A stretch of DNA of 33,921 nucleotides from a virus. The DNA is taken from positions 1-33,921 of IMG/VR virus record IMGVR_UViG_3300042309_000244; one strand, 5' to 3'. Positions 12,019 through 30,366 of the stretch are shown here, one piece after another. The position numbers were made by a program, and so were the translations under genes. The stretch's first letter is position 1. Each line of letters opens with the position of its first letter. A model generated the notes under the pieces. It did not search any database, had not been told where the DNA came from, and saw nothing but the letters and a program-made list of their open reading frames with translations.

Positions 12019-12972
<954 letters not shown>

Positions 12973-16117: not shown

Positions 16118-16150
16118 GTGACACTAGCGACGCCAGGAGCGGGCGAGTGA
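16118..16150 (+). CDS. Possible 10-codon leader peptide
   Basis: GTG at 16118 preceded by AGAAGGAAG reads VTLATPGAGE and stops with a TGA that overlaps the GTG start of the primase-helicase (GTGA). The upstream sequence CACCTGCGAACAGAAGGAAG is a diverged copy of the start-associated repeat. Translation of the leader could couple or regulate the primase-helicase start. Real expression is uncertain. Confidence 0.35.
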   Translation: MTLATPGAGE

Positions 16151-18144
16151 CCATGCCCACTCCCGCCGACCACCCCCTGCTGACCGCCGCGCGCGACTGG
16201 TTCGACGCCGGGTTCGCTGTCATCCCCAGCCATGAGGACGGCGGCAAGCGCCCGTTCGGGCCGTGGAAGCAGTACCAAGCGCAGCGACCGACATGGGCCG
16301 AGATCGAGGGCTGGCTGGCCACCGGCCGGTTCACCGGCATCGGCGTGCTCACCGGCCATGCCTCCGGCAACGTCGAGATGGTCGAGATCGAGGGACCAAC
16401 CGAGGCGGCAGCGGTCGCCATCGGCAGGGTCAAGGCCAAGGCCGACGAGCTGGGCTGCGCCGACCTGATGGACCGCGTGTTCTCCGGCTGCATCTCGCGC
16501 AGCGCTGGTGATGGCCTGCATGTGTTCGTGCGCGTGGCCGATGGTCCCGCCAAGGGCAACACCAAGCTGGCAATGAGCGCCGATGGTCAGGTGATCGCCG
16601 AGACCAGAGGCGAGGGCGGGTTCGTCATCGTCGCCCCCACGCCCGGCAGGAAAGGCCACCGCGAGGGCGCGGTCTATGCGTTCATCGCGTCCAGCAACCC
16701 TGCGCGCACCGTCGACATCAGCAGCGCCGAGCGCGACCAGCTGCACGCAGTGTTCACTGCCGCACTCGATGAGGCGCCCGCAGTCGTGACGCCCGAGCGG
16801 CCGATGCTGCAGGCCGTCACCTACGACGCGCCCAGCCCCTTGGACGAGTACCGCGAGCACGTCACCTGGCGGTCCATCCTTGAGCCCCTCGGCTGGCGGC
16901 ACTCCCACCACGACGGGCAGCGCGACCACTGGATTCGCCCCGGCAAGGACCCACGGGAAGGCACCAGCGCCACCACCATCGAGGACGGCCCGCTGTACTG
17001 CTTCTCCACCAACGCGGGCCTGCCCGCCGAGGTCGGGCTGTCCAAGGCGCAGGTGTACGCACACCTGCATCACGGTGGCGACCTCAGCGCCGCCAGCCGT
17101 GCCCTGCGCGCTGCAGGCTACGGGGAGGACGTGGTGGCCGCGCTAGCGGCGTGGGAGGTCGACCTGCCGACCGACGCCGACCCCGACGACGTGGCACAGG
17201 CGCGTGACTCATGGGTGCGCGAGAACCTGCCACTGCTGGACTGGCACGCCTTGTGGGAGGACGAGACACAGGAGGAGTGGCTGGTCGAGCCGCTGCTGGC
17301 CGCACGGCGGCTCGTGGCCCTTTACAGCGCCCCCAAGGTCGGCAAGTCCCTGCTCATGCTGGAGATCGCGGCCGGAATCGCGGCCGGGCGCGAGGTGCTA
17401 GGCAACCCGGCCAGGCAGCCGGTGCGCGTGCTGTACGTCGACTTTGAGAACGATCCGCGCGGGGACATCCGGCGCCGCCTTGACGACATGGACTACACCC
17501 CCGACGACCTCGGCAACCTGTGCTACCTGACCTTCCCCACCATGGCGTCGCTGGACTCCGAGCCCGGTTCCCAGCAACTCGCCGCTGCGGTCGATACCTA
17601 CGGCTGCCAAGTCGTCGTCATCGACACCGTGTCCCGCGCCATCAAGGGCGAGGAGAATGAGAACGACACGTGGCTGTCGTTCTACCGGCACACCGGCCTG
17701 AAGATGAAGCAGCGCGGCGTTGCCATGATCCGCCTCGACCACGCCGGCAAGGACGAGACCAAGGGCCAGCGAGGCGGGTCGGCCAAGTCCGGCGACGTGG
17801 ATGCCGTCTGGCGCATGAGCAAGAAGTCCGAGGATGTCTACGAGCTCATTTGCGAGGCCAAGCGCTTCCCCATTGCTGAGGGCTCCCTGACCATCAAGCG
17901 CCAGGACTCACCGCTGCGGCACCACGTCGACAGCAACGCCATCAAGGAGCTGCGCGAGCAGGTCATGGACTGGATGACCGATGCGCGCATCCCCAAGGAC
18001 GGCAGCCTGTCCATGAAGGACGTGCAGAAGACGCTGCGGGAGGCAGGCCACACCTTCGCCAACGGGGTCGTCAGCAAGGCCGTCTACGAGGCCTACTGCA
18101 AGCGCGTGTCGACGTGGGTCGCCAGCCAGGTGGAGGCCGGATGA
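16147..18144 (+). CDS. Bifunctional primase-helicase (prim-pol N-terminus, RecA-like helicase C-terminus)
   Basis: 665 aa from GTG 16147 (ATG 16153 possible). N-terminal ~1-200 resembles the bifunctional primase/polymerase domain: AARDWFDAGFAVIPSHEDGGKRPFGPWKQYQ, GIGVLTGHASGN, VEMVEIEG and a SAGDGLHVFVRV segment. The centre is a linker with a CHC2-free basic region. The C-terminal half has Walker A SAPKVGKS (~394-401), VLYVDFEND, Walker B VVVIDTVSRA (~490) and a LDHAGKD segment, as in AAA_25/RepA-like helicases. It would prime and unwind phage DNA; the adjacent iteron array supports an initiator-helicase role (inference). Confidence 0.9.
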   Translation: MTMPTPADHPLLTAARDWFDAGFAVIPSHEDGGKRPFGPWKQYQAQRPTWAEIEGWLATGRFTGIGVLTGHASGNVEMVEIEGPTEAAAVAIGRVKAKADELGCADLMDRVFSGCISRSAGDGLHVFVRVADGPAKGNTKLAMSADGQVIAETRGEGGFVIVAPTPGRKGHREGAVYAFIASSNPARTVDISSAERDQLHAVFTAALDEAPAVVTPERPMLQAVTYDAPSPLDEYREHVTWRSILEPLGWRHSHHDGQRDHWIRPGKDPREGTSATTIEDGPLYCFSTNAGLPAEVGLSKAQVYAHLHHGGDLSAASRALRAAGYGEDVVAALAAWEVDLPTDADPDDVAQARDSWVRENLPLLDWHALWEDETQEEWLVEPLLAARRLVALYSAPKVGKSLLMLEIAAGIAAGREVLGNPARQPVRVLYVDFENDPRGDIRRRLDDMDYTPDDLGNLCYLTFPTMASLDSEPGSQQLAAAVDTYGCQVVVIDTVSRAIKGEENENDTWLSFYRHTGLKMKQRGVAMIRLDHAGKDETKGQRGGSAKSGDVDAVWRMSKKSEDVYELICEAKRFPIAEGSLTIKRQDSPLRHHVDSNAIKELREQVMDWMTDARIPKDGSLSMKDVQKTLREAGHTFANGVVSKAVYEAYCKRVSTWVASQVEAG

Positions 18145-18662
18145 TGCACGCCCTCTACCGCTTCTACAACGCCTGCGACGAGCTGCTGTACGTCGGCATC
18201 ACTAACAACCCGGCCGCTCGGTTCCGGCAGCATGCCGACGCCAAGGACTGGTGGGCCGAGGTCGCGACCATCCGCATTGAGCAGCACGGCAGCCGCGAGG
18301 CGTTGATGGACGCCGAGAGGCAGGCCATCAAGGCCGAGCAGCCTGCCTACAACGTGGTCCACAACGACCCCTCAGTGATCCGCAAGTCCCGTCCCCATGG
18401 GCTCAAGGTCGGCGCCTTCGTTGCCGTGGGGATGGTCGACGGCCGGTGCCCAGTGGGCGAGGTGGTCGCCCTTGACGAGTCGTGGCTGACGATCAGGGGC
18501 AAGGACTGGCTGACAGGCCTGTACTGCCTGCCCGAGCGGGCGCTCAGGCTTGTGGATATCTCCGAGGTGTTCTTCGCTGATCGGGGCCGTGACGGGGTCG
18601 TTCTGGACCACCATCTGGCCGACATTCAGGCCTTCGTCAAGTGTCGCGGAGCGGTCCGATGA
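18141..18662 (+). CDS. GIY-YIG endonuclease domain protein
   Basis: 173 aa, ATGA overlap. The N-terminal ~90 residues carry the GIY-YIG signatures: LYRFYNACDELLYVGITNNP (the two half-motifs as LYR and YVG), then AARFRQHADAKDWW with the conserved Arg, and AERQAIKAEQPAYNV with Glu and Asn. The C-terminal ~80 residues (GLKVGAFVAVGMVDGRCPVGE, ESWLTIRGKDWL) are strand-rich, perhaps a small DNA-binding barrel. Could be a free-standing homing-type or repair nuclease. It sits directly between the replication helicase and the iteron array, so an origin-linked role cannot be excluded. Confidence 0.85.
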   Translation: MMHALYRFYNACDELLYVGITNNPAARFRQHADAKDWWAEVATIRIEQHGSREALMDAERQAIKAEQPAYNVVHNDPSVIRKSRPHGLKVGAFVAVGMVDGRCPVGEVVALDESWLTIRGKDWLTGLYCLPERALRLVDISEVFFADRGRDGVVLDHHLADIQAFVKCRGAVR

Positions 18663-18832
18663 GGCACGGATCGCCCACGGATCGCGCCCGCCCTGCGATC
18701 CGTCGATCCGTGGCGATCCGTGGGCGATCCGTGAGGGAATCCGCGACGATCCGCCTTCAGGGGCACTGCGATCCGTGCGATCCGTTCTATAGAACGGATC
18801 GCGGAGCGCCACGGATTCCGGACGGCTCATGA
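18659..18832 (+). CDS. Coupled mini-ORF lying entirely in the iteron array
   Basis: 57 codons from an ATG overlapping the GIY-YIG stop (ATGA) to a TGA overlapping the next start (ATGA). The product is Arg/Ile/Ser repetitive because it is translated from the CGATCCGT repeats (AIRRSVAIRGRSVRESATIR). Its exact fit supports translation for ribosome traffic, but the peptide looks like a by-product of the DNA repeats rather than a folded protein. Confidence 0.4.
   Translation: MRHGSPTDRARPAIRRSVAIRGRSVRESATIRLQGHCDPCDPFYRTDRGAPRIPDGS
18666..18802. repeat. Iteron-like array with central palindrome, candidate replication origin
   Basis: Within 137 bp there are nine exact CGATCCGT octamers plus one CGATCCGC. 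Forward copies start at 18696, 18704, 18714, 18725, 18769 and 18778 (variant at 18747); inverted copies ACGGATCG start at 18666, 18677 and 18794. The copies at 18778 and 18794 form the arms of a perfect 26-bp palindrome (18777-18802) centred on TTCTATAGAA, the only A/T-rich spot in the array. Repeats of this density beside a primase-helicase gene look like an origin or a cluster of operator sites. Confidence 0.75.
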
Positions 18833-19167
18833 ACCGCCGAGCAACCCCTACTCGCTGCCGGTGCGGAGTCGACATCCTGACCGGCCTTGACGGTGACCGA
18901 GCCGCCCTTCTGGTGACTGTGGATAACTCACCGATCACGGCACAGGCCGAGGTCACCGCCCTGACCGGTCGCAGGCGCACCTACGAGCTGCGGCTCGGAG
19001 CCCTCGACCTGCGGAACCGCTGGACGATCCCGGGCCGACCACCGAGCCCGTCCCGGCCCGTGCTCGTCGAGCACGACTGCGCCCAGCCGGTGCCGCGCAC
19101 CTGGCTGCTGCCACCTGAGCCCATCCCCGCCCCGCCCATCCTTGTCGACCAGGAGGTCCCGTTCTGA
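18829..19167 (+). CDS. Hypothetical protein with CxC motif
   Basis: 112 aa, ATGA overlap with the mini-ORF and one-base overlap with WhiB. N-terminus TRCRCGVDILTGLDGDRAA, a strand-rich middle (YELRLGALDLRNRW), then a Pro-rich C-terminus with EHDCAQP that may complete a metal site. Recurrent in actinophage replication regions as a small protein of unknown function; I cannot assign a role. Confidence 0.6.
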   Translation: MNRRATPTRCRCGVDILTGLDGDRAALLVTVDNSPITAQAEVTALTGRRRTYELRLGALDLRNRWTIPGRPPSPSRPVLVEHDCAQPVPRTWLLPPEPIPAPPILVDQEVPF

Positions 19168-19436
19168 TGCGTCACCAGCACTGGCTGCCGTCCCTGCCGC
19201 CTCCGGCCGAGTGGATGGAGCAATCCGCCTGCAAGGACAGCGACCCCGACCTGTTCTTCACCGAGGGCAACACCGCCCGCCACTACCGCGACCAGCGGCA
19301 TGCCCACCTGATCTGCGCGGTGTGCCCGGTGTCAGCCGAGTGCCTGGCCTACGCGCTGGAGCACGACGAGCGGTTCGGGATCTGGGGCGGCCTGTCAGCC
19401 GCCGACCGTCAAGGGATGAAGCGAGGATCAGCATGA
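19167..19436 (+). CDS. WhiB-family Fe-S transcriptional regulator
   Basis: 89 aa. WhiB proteins are actinobacteria-specific [4Fe-4S] regulators that bind the main sigma factor. All four Cys ligands are present: Cys22, Cys50, Cys53 and Cys59 (AC...CAVCPVSAEC), followed by the GIWGGLS turn (about residues 72-78) and a basic end. N-terminal DPDLFF is also typical. Phage WhiB copies are known to interfere with host WhiB networks and can affect superinfection; which applies here is unknown. This gene is a strong marker for an actinobacterial host. Confidence 0.92.
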   Translation: MRHQHWLPSLPPPAEWMEQSACKDSDPDLFFTEGNTARHYRDQRHAHLICAVCPVSAECLAYALEHDERFGIWGGLSAADRQGMKRGSA

Positions 19437-28537: not shown

Positions 28538-29722
28538 GTGCCCAACAAGCTCGCCGTGCTTGCCGTCAGCAACGCCCCTTGGGCGCCGACGGGGTACGGA
28601 ACACAGATCAAGCAGCTTGCGCTGCGCATGCGCGATGACGGCCACCATGTCGCCATCGCCGCCAACTACGGGCTGGAAGCCACGCAGACGACGTGGGAGG
28701 GCATCGAGGTCCTACCCAAGGGCTTCGACGCCTACAGCAACGACATCGTCGTCGCCTACGCCAAGGACTGGGCGCGTCAGCATCCTGACGCCACGCCCAT
28801 CGTGCTGACCCTGTACGACGTATGGGTGTTCGCGCAGCATCCATCGTGGGACAAGCTCGACATGCCCGTCGTGTCGTGGGTGCCCATCGACCACCTGCCT
28901 GTGCCGCCCAAGGTCGCCGACTGGTGCCGGCGGCCCAACGTCACCCCGGTGGCCATGAGCCACTACGGCGCCGACCAACTGGCCAAGGCCGGGATTGAGC
29001 ATCACTGCATCCCGCACGGCATTGAGACCTCGCTCTACAAGCCGACGCCGAGTACGACTGACGCCAGCGGCCGTGAGCGCACCGGCCGCGAACTGATGCG
29101 CGTGCCGGAAGACGCGCACGTCACCAGCATCGTGAACGCGAACAAGGGCACCTCGCCCGTGCGCAAGGCCTTCGCCGAGCAGCTCATGGCGTGGGCGATG
29201 TTCGCCCAAGACAAACCCGACGCCTGGCTGTACCTGCACACCGAGACCGGCGGCGCCATGGGCGGCATCCCGCTGATGCCGCTACTGGAAGCGGTCGGCG
29301 CACCGATGGATCGCGTCAGCATCGTCAACCAGTACCAGTACCGCCTGAGCATCCCTGATGAGGCGATGGCCGCGATCTACAGTGGAACAGATGTCCTTAT
29401 GGCTCCTACGCTGGGCGAGGGCTACGGCTTGACGGTGGCCGAGGCGGCCTCATGCGAGACCCGCAGCATCGTCCAGGACTTCACCGCCCAGCCCGAGCTG
29501 GTCAGCGACGGCTGGAAGGTCAGCGGCCAGCCACTGTGGGACCCGGCGCAGACGGCATGGTTCTCGGTCCCCAGCGTGCACGACATCGTTGACGCGTTGC
29601 AGCAGTCCTACTCCGACCGGCGACGCTCGCCGGGTTCGCGTGCGCACATCTGTGCGCACTACGACGCCGACCGGCTCTACACCACCGGCTGGCGGCCGCT
29701 GCTCAAGGGGCTCGCGTCGTGA
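28538..29722 (+). CDS. Glycosyltransferase, GT4-like (GT-B fold)
   Basis: 394 aa, GTG start (GCGGAGACACCT upstream). N-terminal Rossmann-like half: LAVSNAPWAPTGYGTQIKQL, GHHVAIAANYGLEA, then VPIDHLPVPPKV. C-terminal sugar-nucleotide half: SIVNANKGTSPVRKAFAEQL, AMAAIYSGTDVLMAPTLGEG and EGYGLTVAEAASC (about 293-305), which is the E-x7-E nucleotide-sugar binding motif of GT4 enzymes. First gene of a three-gene cassette after the capsid gene. Substrate unknown; virion protein glycosylation is the leading inference. Confidence 0.85.
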   Translation: MPNKLAVLAVSNAPWAPTGYGTQIKQLALRMRDDGHHVAIAANYGLEATQTTWEGIEVLPKGFDAYSNDIVVAYAKDWARQHPDATPIVLTLYDVWVFAQHPSWDKLDMPVVSWVPIDHLPVPPKVADWCRRPNVTPVAMSHYGADQLAKAGIEHHCIPHGIETSLYKPTPSTTDASGRERTGRELMRVPEDAHVTSIVNANKGTSPVRKAFAEQLMAWAMFAQDKPDAWLYLHTETGGAMGGIPLMPLLEAVGAPMDRVSIVNQYQYRLSIPDEAMAAIYSGTDVLMAPTLGEGYGLTVAEAASCETRSIVQDFTAQPELVSDGWKVSGQPLWDPAQTAWFSVPSVHDIVDALQQSYSDRRRSPGSRAHICAHYDADRLYTTGWRPLLKGLAS

Positions 29723-30366
29723 TCCCGGCCATGATCGTGCCGATCCTGACCGGCGCTGACCTGCTTGACCAGATGCTCGGCACGATCGACTGTGAGGTCG
29801 GCACGCTCGTCGTCATCGACAACGGGCACTGCCTGCCCGGTGACTTCGCCCAGCGTGACTGGGCGCGCAGCGCGTACCTCGTCAGGTCGCCCAGCAATCT
29901 TGGCGTGGCCACGAGCTGGAACCTTGGCATCAAGATGACGCCGTTCGCGCCGTGGTGGCTCATCGCCAACTACGACGTGACCTGGCCTGCCGGATCGCTG
30001 GCGCAGTTCGACACCGAGGACGCCTCCCGCGTCCTGCGACTGTCGATGGCCTCGCCACCGTGGAGCGCGTTCACCATCGGTGAGGACGTGGTCAGGTCGG
30101 TCGGCCTGTTCGACGAGGCCTTCCATCCGGCCTACTGGGAGGACACCGACTACCAGCGGCGCTGTGAGGCCGCTGGAGCGCCTGTCATCCAGTCCGAGAT
30201 ACCGGTAGAGCACCGAGGCTCATCAACGCTGCAGTCGGGCTACAGGGGCGCCAATGATCGCACCTTCCCAGCCAACGCGGCCTACCACGCCGCCAAGCAG
30301 TTTCGGGGCGATCTGACCGAGGGGCGCTGGAGCCTCAAGCGGCGTCGGGAGCAGTCATGGGACTGA
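29719..30366 (+). CDS. Glycosyltransferase, GT2-like (GT-A fold)
   Basis: 215 aa, GTG overlapping the previous stop. Seen: IVPILTGADLLDQMLGTI, GTLVVIDNGHC, the SPSNLGVATSWNLGI segment typical of rhamnosyltransferase-like GT2 enzymes, WWLIANYDVTWP (DxD-like NYDV) and GLFDEAFHPAYWEDTDYQRR (the ED acceptor/base motif). A small single-domain enzyme with no membrane anchor. Co-translated with both neighbours of the cassette. Confidence 0.85.
   Translation: MIPAMIVPILTGADLLDQMLGTIDCEVGTLVVIDNGHCLPGDFAQRDWARSAYLVRSPSNLGVATSWNLGIKMTPFAPWWLIANYDVTWPAGSLAQFDTEDASRVLRLSMASPPWSAFTIGEDVVRSVGLFDEAFHPAYWEDTDYQRRCEAAGAPVIQSEIPVEHRGSSTLQSGYRGANDRTFPANAAYHAAKQFRGDLTEGRWSLKRRREQSWD

Follow-up and report, generated by a model that had tools for sequence, protein, structure and literature searches.

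A candidate replication origin of re-spelled octamers beside a phage primase-helicase, likely read by the helicase C-terminal domain

In a viral genome, one octamer recurs in both orientations next to a palindrome, within a run of genes whose ends overlap and through which a coupled reading frame passes, raising the questions of what this element is for and which protein reads it. The locus belongs to a 33.9-kb IMG/VR record with terminase, portal, head protease and tail genes (the whole stretch analysed, 33,921 nucleotides, is referred to as the window). The original prediction, made from the letters alone, offered a replication origin bound by a phage initiator or a cluster of operators. Based on comparisons with related loci, we propose, at a probability of roughly 80%, that 18666-18802 is an origin, where the primase-helicase would bind its own iterons via its C-terminal domain (CTD), open the DNA near the palindrome centre and start replication. 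Of the two predicted options, binding by the initiator is supported through co-variation of octamer and CTD, and an operator function may be a second role.

The array and its neighbours in the window

The octamer CGATCCGT occurs nine times exactly within 136 bp (18666-18801), six times forward and three times inverted, accompanied by the one-mismatch copy CGATCCGC at 18747, confirming the predicted nine copies and one variant (Table 1). Two weaker look-alikes are found, GAATCCGC near 18739 and, inverted, GAATCCGT near 18811, and a single distant exact copy lies at 12298. By chance, 1.6 copies are expected in the whole window, and the largest count in 100 shuffles was five; in a 600-bp test stretch the top octamer occurs nine times, compared to a shuffle maximum averaging 2.3 and reaching 4 at most. 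The 26-bp palindrome predicted at 18777-18802 is indeed perfect, with TTCTATAGAA at its centre. Many short repeats and a putative opening site beside an initiator gene, as found here, are features of iteron-type origins. GC skew, suggested as a check, displays no clear switch at the array and is uninformative.

The primase-helicase gene is followed by that of the GIY-YIG nuclease and then by the array, beyond which lie a gene for a CxxC-type protein (phrog_16156) and, as the second gene downstream, one for a WhiB-like regulator (19167-19436). Residues 341-665 of the primase-helicase are modelled as a RecA/KaiC/RadA-type core (AlphaFold2/Foldseek). For the CTD, AlphaFold2 predicts three helices (598-612, 623-632 and 644-652; pLDDT of about 82-94 per 10-residue block), and no significant Pfam family or PDB-fold match was found (Foldseek, Pfam); we label it HTH-like from the modelled helix pattern alone. 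The array had been described as lying directly after the primase-helicase and GIY-YIG genes; in the relatives the primase-helicase gene immediately precedes it, whereas in the window the GIY-YIG gene (18141-18662) fits exactly into the space from the stop codon of the primase-helicase to the beginning of the array, joined by an ATGA overlap at either end and presumably leaving origin function unharmed. DNA of this gene is about 68-70% identical to GIY-YIG genes in Mycobacterium phages. Elsewhere in the window, a run of GA dinucleotide repeats is present in the DNA C5-methyltransferase gene region (12751-12781), and two glycosyltransferase/galactosyltransferase family matches lie downstream of the head genes (28538-30366). 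Primase-helicase relatives in named bacterial genomes are mainly from Actinomycetota (Arthrobacter, Agrococcus, Mobilicoccus, Nocardioides), and hence an actinobacterium is the likely host, as judged from sequence relationships.

Table 1 Features of the proposed origin region (positions in the window)
Feature	Position	Strand	Remark
Primase-helicase gene	16147..18144	+	PrimPol (PF09250) N-domain, RecA/RepA-like AAA_25 helicase (PF13481), C-terminal domain
Codons of C-terminal three-helix domain (CTD)	17938..18102	+	Residues 598-652; proposed iteron reader
GIY-YIG nuclease gene	18141..18662	+	Between primase-helicase and array; absent there in relatives
57-codon ORF threading array	18659..18832	+	No Pfam/PHROGs match
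Iteron CGATCCGT	18666..18673	-	
Iteron CGATCCGT	18677..18684	-	
Iteron CGATCCGT	18696..18703	+	
Iteron CGATCCGT	18704..18711	+	
Iteron CGATCCGT	18714..18721	+	
Iteron CGATCCGT	18725..18732	+	
Variant iteron CGATCCGC	18747..18754	+	Slot ~40 bp left of palindrome centre
Iteron CGATCCGT	18769..18776	+	Most conserved slot, ~-19 from centre
26-bp perfect palindrome	18777..18802	.	Centre TTCTATAGAA; proposed opening site
Iteron CGATCCGT, palindrome left arm	18778..18785	+	
Iteron CGATCCGT, palindrome right arm	18794..18801	-	
CxxC-type small protein gene (phrog_16156)	18829..19167	+	Adjoins array in most relatives

Arrays in related loci

Searches with the primase-helicase recovered about 30 separate loci, with identities mostly of 45-64%, and later scans returned almost only known loci; therefore the family appears small in this collection. 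The loci L035, L037 and L038 come from sequenced isolates. Nearly all relatives have an equally dense octamer array just after the gene, usually of another octamer (CGGTTCCC, ATATGCCC, GTGTCCCG, GTGTGCCG, TGATTCCC, CGTGCCCC, CCTGTCCC, CGTGCCGC, GGTGACCG and others), and most possess 4-10 copies of their own octamer, compared to shuffle maxima averaging about 2.2. Conservation of the octamers had been proposed as a check: the location and density of the array are retained, as are the spacing of its slots and its palindrome centre, whereas the octamer itself differs and is shared only by L025, in a CGATCCGT-like form. In L008, L010, L036, L037 and L038 the array begins within the last helicase codons, the iterons partly spelling the protein tail. 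The N-terminal primase module varies among loci (PrimPol, Toprim/CHC2-like or none detected) while the array stays; it is present in L011, where a Toprim/CHC2-type N-terminus replaces PrimPol, in L010 and L038, where PrimPol is undetected, and in L006, which has a DUF3987 helicase instead. CTATAG is found in 11 of 28 array regions, compared to an expectation of 0.0065 per 300 bp derived from the rest of the loci, and other array regions contain near forms such as CCATAGG or CTAGGAG. A compact AT-rich element with few iterons and a perfect 28-bp palindrome, GTATGTATTCCCTATAGGGAATACATAC, was observed at L007:9046-9140.

The layout recurs together with the centre. Most iterons are on the left side of the palindrome centre, which is AT-rich and 10 bp long; as a rule, one to three inverted copies are found on its right. 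A forward iteron near -19 from the centre is present in 12 of the 15 loci compared, and further recurrent slots are located near -41 and +9. Several loci with different octamers have more slots in common than expected from random placement, with palindrome centres assigned by eye from a first pass: L010 and L035 share 8 of 13 (p 0.0025) and the window and L019 share 6 of 10 (p 0.015), while sharing between the window and L004, L015 or L010 is not significant. Spacings near 10 and 22 bp suggest that the iterons are placed on one face of the helix.

No clear array was seen in L033, L064 and L065. The only helicases gained from a sample of 395 genomes were distant ones (L062-L065), and at L062 and L063, too, searches for repeats revealed no array. 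Phage mu1/6 is the closest isolated phage and the only close one, and its checked region lacks an array of this kind; none is present near gp40-gp44 of BFK20, querying isolated-phage DNA with the array retrieved nothing relevant, and a plasmid homologue of the primase-helicase was not found. Scanning viral contigs for three CGATCCGT copies within 30-bp gaps returned 54 stretches, none with a related helicase or a comparable array, and the prediction that the same octamer accompanies a similar CTD consequently has L025 as its single case. We note that the viral contigs L074, L090, L095, L100, L101 and L103 have in common three CGATCCGT copies spaced by 8 and 20 bp, with no related helicase nearby; these may represent another repeat family using the same octamer, or related sequences.

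Which protein reads the octamer

Two binders had been put forward, the primase-helicase and the zinc/HTH protein, taken here as the downstream CxxC-type protein. Across 22 loci, octamer similarity follows CTD identity when the helicase core is controlled for (partial Mantel r 0.29, p 0.0005; seeds and motif regions were hand-chosen per locus and represent few independent lineages), and does not follow core identity when the CTD is controlled for (p 0.80). The correlation over all loci is modest, and among the 11 PrimPol loci alone that of motif and CTD is not significant (p 0.21). In a sliding window along the helicase, the octamer signal stems mainly from residues 601-660, and neither the CxxC protein nor the PrimPol domain tracks the octamer. 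The CTD closest to that of the window belongs to L025 (38% identity), which also has the closest octamer. Conversely, the CxxC proteins of L019 and L025 differ at only 3 of 95 residues, yet their octamers are unrelated, which disfavours this protein as the reader. Of the two candidates, co-variation of octamer and CTD favours the primase-helicase, and its CTD is the likely iteron reader.

Near-identical loci serve as natural experiments. The proteins of L016 and L018 are 90% identical, and in 10 of 10 slots the two loci differ at iteron position 5, where one has C and the other a different base (G in nine slots). In contrast, the other seven iteron positions differ at 2 of 70 sites, the spacers at 21 of 94 and the 5' flank at 1 of 62. 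This pair has one dense block of protein changes, located in the CTD (residues ~655-681 of that ORF), where DNA identity falls to 46%. Similarly, a G/C difference in the final iteron base separates L031 from L049 at their shared slots, and the CTD changes too. These single-base switches favour stepwise change.

In L019, L020, L021 and L025 the helicase cores are 94-98% identical. L019 and L020 have the octamer TGATTCCC in common and CTDs that are 81% identical, whereas L021 uses CGTGCCCC and L025 a CGATCCGT-like octamer, with CTDs only 33-40% identical to the others. Although re-spelled, the slots are in register, and the palindrome GTTCCCCCCC-CATAGG-GGGGAAC is kept. The CTD and the array change together in an island of ~360 bp with flanks that are mostly 80-98% identical. 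A comparison of L019 with L025 gives a DNA identity as low as 48-66% only in the stretch between about -200 and +160 relative to the stop codon; the remaining compared part of the helicase gene is 80-98% identical and the DNA downstream mostly 88-100%. Such an abrupt profile favours exchange with a sibling lineage.

Origin model, alternatives and known systems

In the proposed mechanism, the primase-helicase, encoded by the gene to the left of the array, would bind the octamers as double-stranded iterons through its CTD and assemble on the array. The DNA would then open at or near the TTCTATAGAA palindromic centre, the primase-helicase would load as a ring helicase, and its own PrimPol domain would supply the primers. 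Initiator and origin may thereby constitute a private lock-and-key pair, with relatives using another octamer and a matching CTD while slots, spacing and palindrome are kept, and we infer that incompatibility or escape from parasites drives the divergence. An extension to which we grant somewhat less than even chances is that the ~360-bp island is a specificity-switching origin cassette, i.e. that the reading domain and about ten slots change as a unit between otherwise near-identical phages under diversifying selection. New spellings would then appear in all slots, in register, with the palindrome centre and flanking genes left in place; the pressure would come from incompatibility with co-infecting relatives, or from satellites or defences that use the origin and have to be evaded.

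Autoregulation is frequent among iteron initiators, and the array lies inside an operon with translational coupling, as would fit a cluster of operators through which the CTD, or another regulator, chiefly adjusts how strongly the replication operon is transcribed. We consider this improbable, as no sigma-70-like promoter or terminator-like site was detected in 18500-19000 (a search confined to these types), as the co-varying putative reader is attached to a replicative helicase, and as a conserved palindrome centre and a defined slot skeleton are located downstream of the gene. Arrays with palindromes resembling iterons can also act as centromeres or resolution sites; nevertheless, a role in partition, packaging or resolution has little to commend it, since the array position is tied to an initiator-type helicase rather than to a terminase or partition gene, and the octamer co-varies with the helicase CTD. 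It is similarly very unlikely that the octamers are start sequences at which PrimPol synthesizes primers on single-stranded DNA. Such preferences exist in some primase-polymerases, and priming by CCPol-MP maps to the SCCmec iterons (PMC7581432), but the fixed slots hold both orientations, and the idea was rejected because arrays persist without PrimPol and the octamer follows the CTD rather than the PrimPol sequence.

The coupled frame suggests another product. As predicted, a 57-aa ORF (18659-18832) threads the array, with ATGA overlaps to the GIY-YIG stop and to the start of the next gene. Among 19 loci, a count that includes near relatives and hence not 19 independent cases, the frame coupled through ATGA crosses the array uninterrupted in 15, compared to 6 for each of the other frames and 7.8 expected, as would agree with the peptide, or an RNA structure, being the selected product and the repeats by-products. 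However, the frame is closed inside the array in L006, L019, L020 and L025, and the peptides are unrelated among relatives and altered at most iterons between L016 and L018; conservation of the peptide in place of the repeats, named in the original prediction as evidence against a DNA element, is thus not observed. In addition, octamers are present in either orientation, and their sequence changes with that of a protein domain. With peptides not conserved and no Rfam match, both a peptide and an RNA product were rejected as exceedingly improbable. In L016, L018, L021, L022 and L031 the coupled frame continues into the CxxC protein as its N-terminus. As the peptides are not conserved and the frame is fused in these five loci, the role of the open frame is probably in translating the gene that follows, not in making a functional peptide. 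The coupling, described as unusual, is special only in part: the frame is preferentially open, but no conserved peptide lies behind it.

Returning to the origin reading, a close functional parallel, and by analogy the best reading of the array, is the Rep-ori of SaPIs/PICIs. There, as at the Cch2 origin of SCCmec, an initiator helicase, sometimes primase-fused, has its origin directly 3' of the gene, with short iterons near an AT-rich opening site, and the helicase C-terminal domain reads the iterons, as shown for Cch2 and stated for SaPI Rep (PMC7581432, PMC6092414). An origin placed 3' of an initiator helicase and read by its C-terminal domain is thus already known. Likewise, the array here is directly 3' of the primase-helicase in nearly all relatives, with the GIY-YIG gene intervening in the window. 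The octamer co-varies with the helicase CTD and nothing else tested, and the CTD may thus be the reader. In contrast to the phage-dependent SaPI/PICI satellites, the window is a full phage genome (terminase, portal, protease and tail genes), and its protein combines PrimPol with a RecA-type AAA_25 helicase. Moreover, two iteron sets flank an AT-rich stretch in the known systems, whereas here the iterons are mostly on one side of a short CTATAG-like centre, and the array is often inside an open coupled frame.

Other systems share parts of the arrangement. Lambda has longer iterons, placed inside the coding sequence of O. Lambdoid O and ori resemble the present locus in having a phage initiator, nearby iterons with an opening site and an origin in translated sequence (PMC7466680), although O is not a helicase. 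In the pRN1/BIP-1 system, the PrimPol-helicase carries a DNA-binding domain at its C terminus, and an indispensable origin element follows immediately downstream; this element diverges in sequence among pRN plasmids while its flanks are conserved (PMC4234260). However, it uses an SF3 helicase with a winged helix and one long (~100-nt) stem-loop, an octamer array not being described, as opposed to the RecA-type AAA_25 helicase and octamer array found here. In geminiviruses, iteron positions and repeat pattern are kept while the sequence differs in close relatives and is thought to match the cognate Rep, an essential role of the exact iteron being questioned (PMC12548392); their few iterons serve rolling-circle replication with unrelated proteins. 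The literature searched contained no match for this phage family, for slot-by-slot re-spelling between near-identical genomes, or for a joint CTD-array island.

In conclusion, we here mark a likely replication origin and its initiator for a family of mostly uncultured phages, and provide natural swaps between near-isogenic genomes that alter the origin word jointly with the proposed reading domain. These raise testable questions of how a small helicase tail domain may read an origin, and of why phages keep changing their origin code. If the cassette reading is true, these phages would offer a readable helix-to-octamer recognition code.
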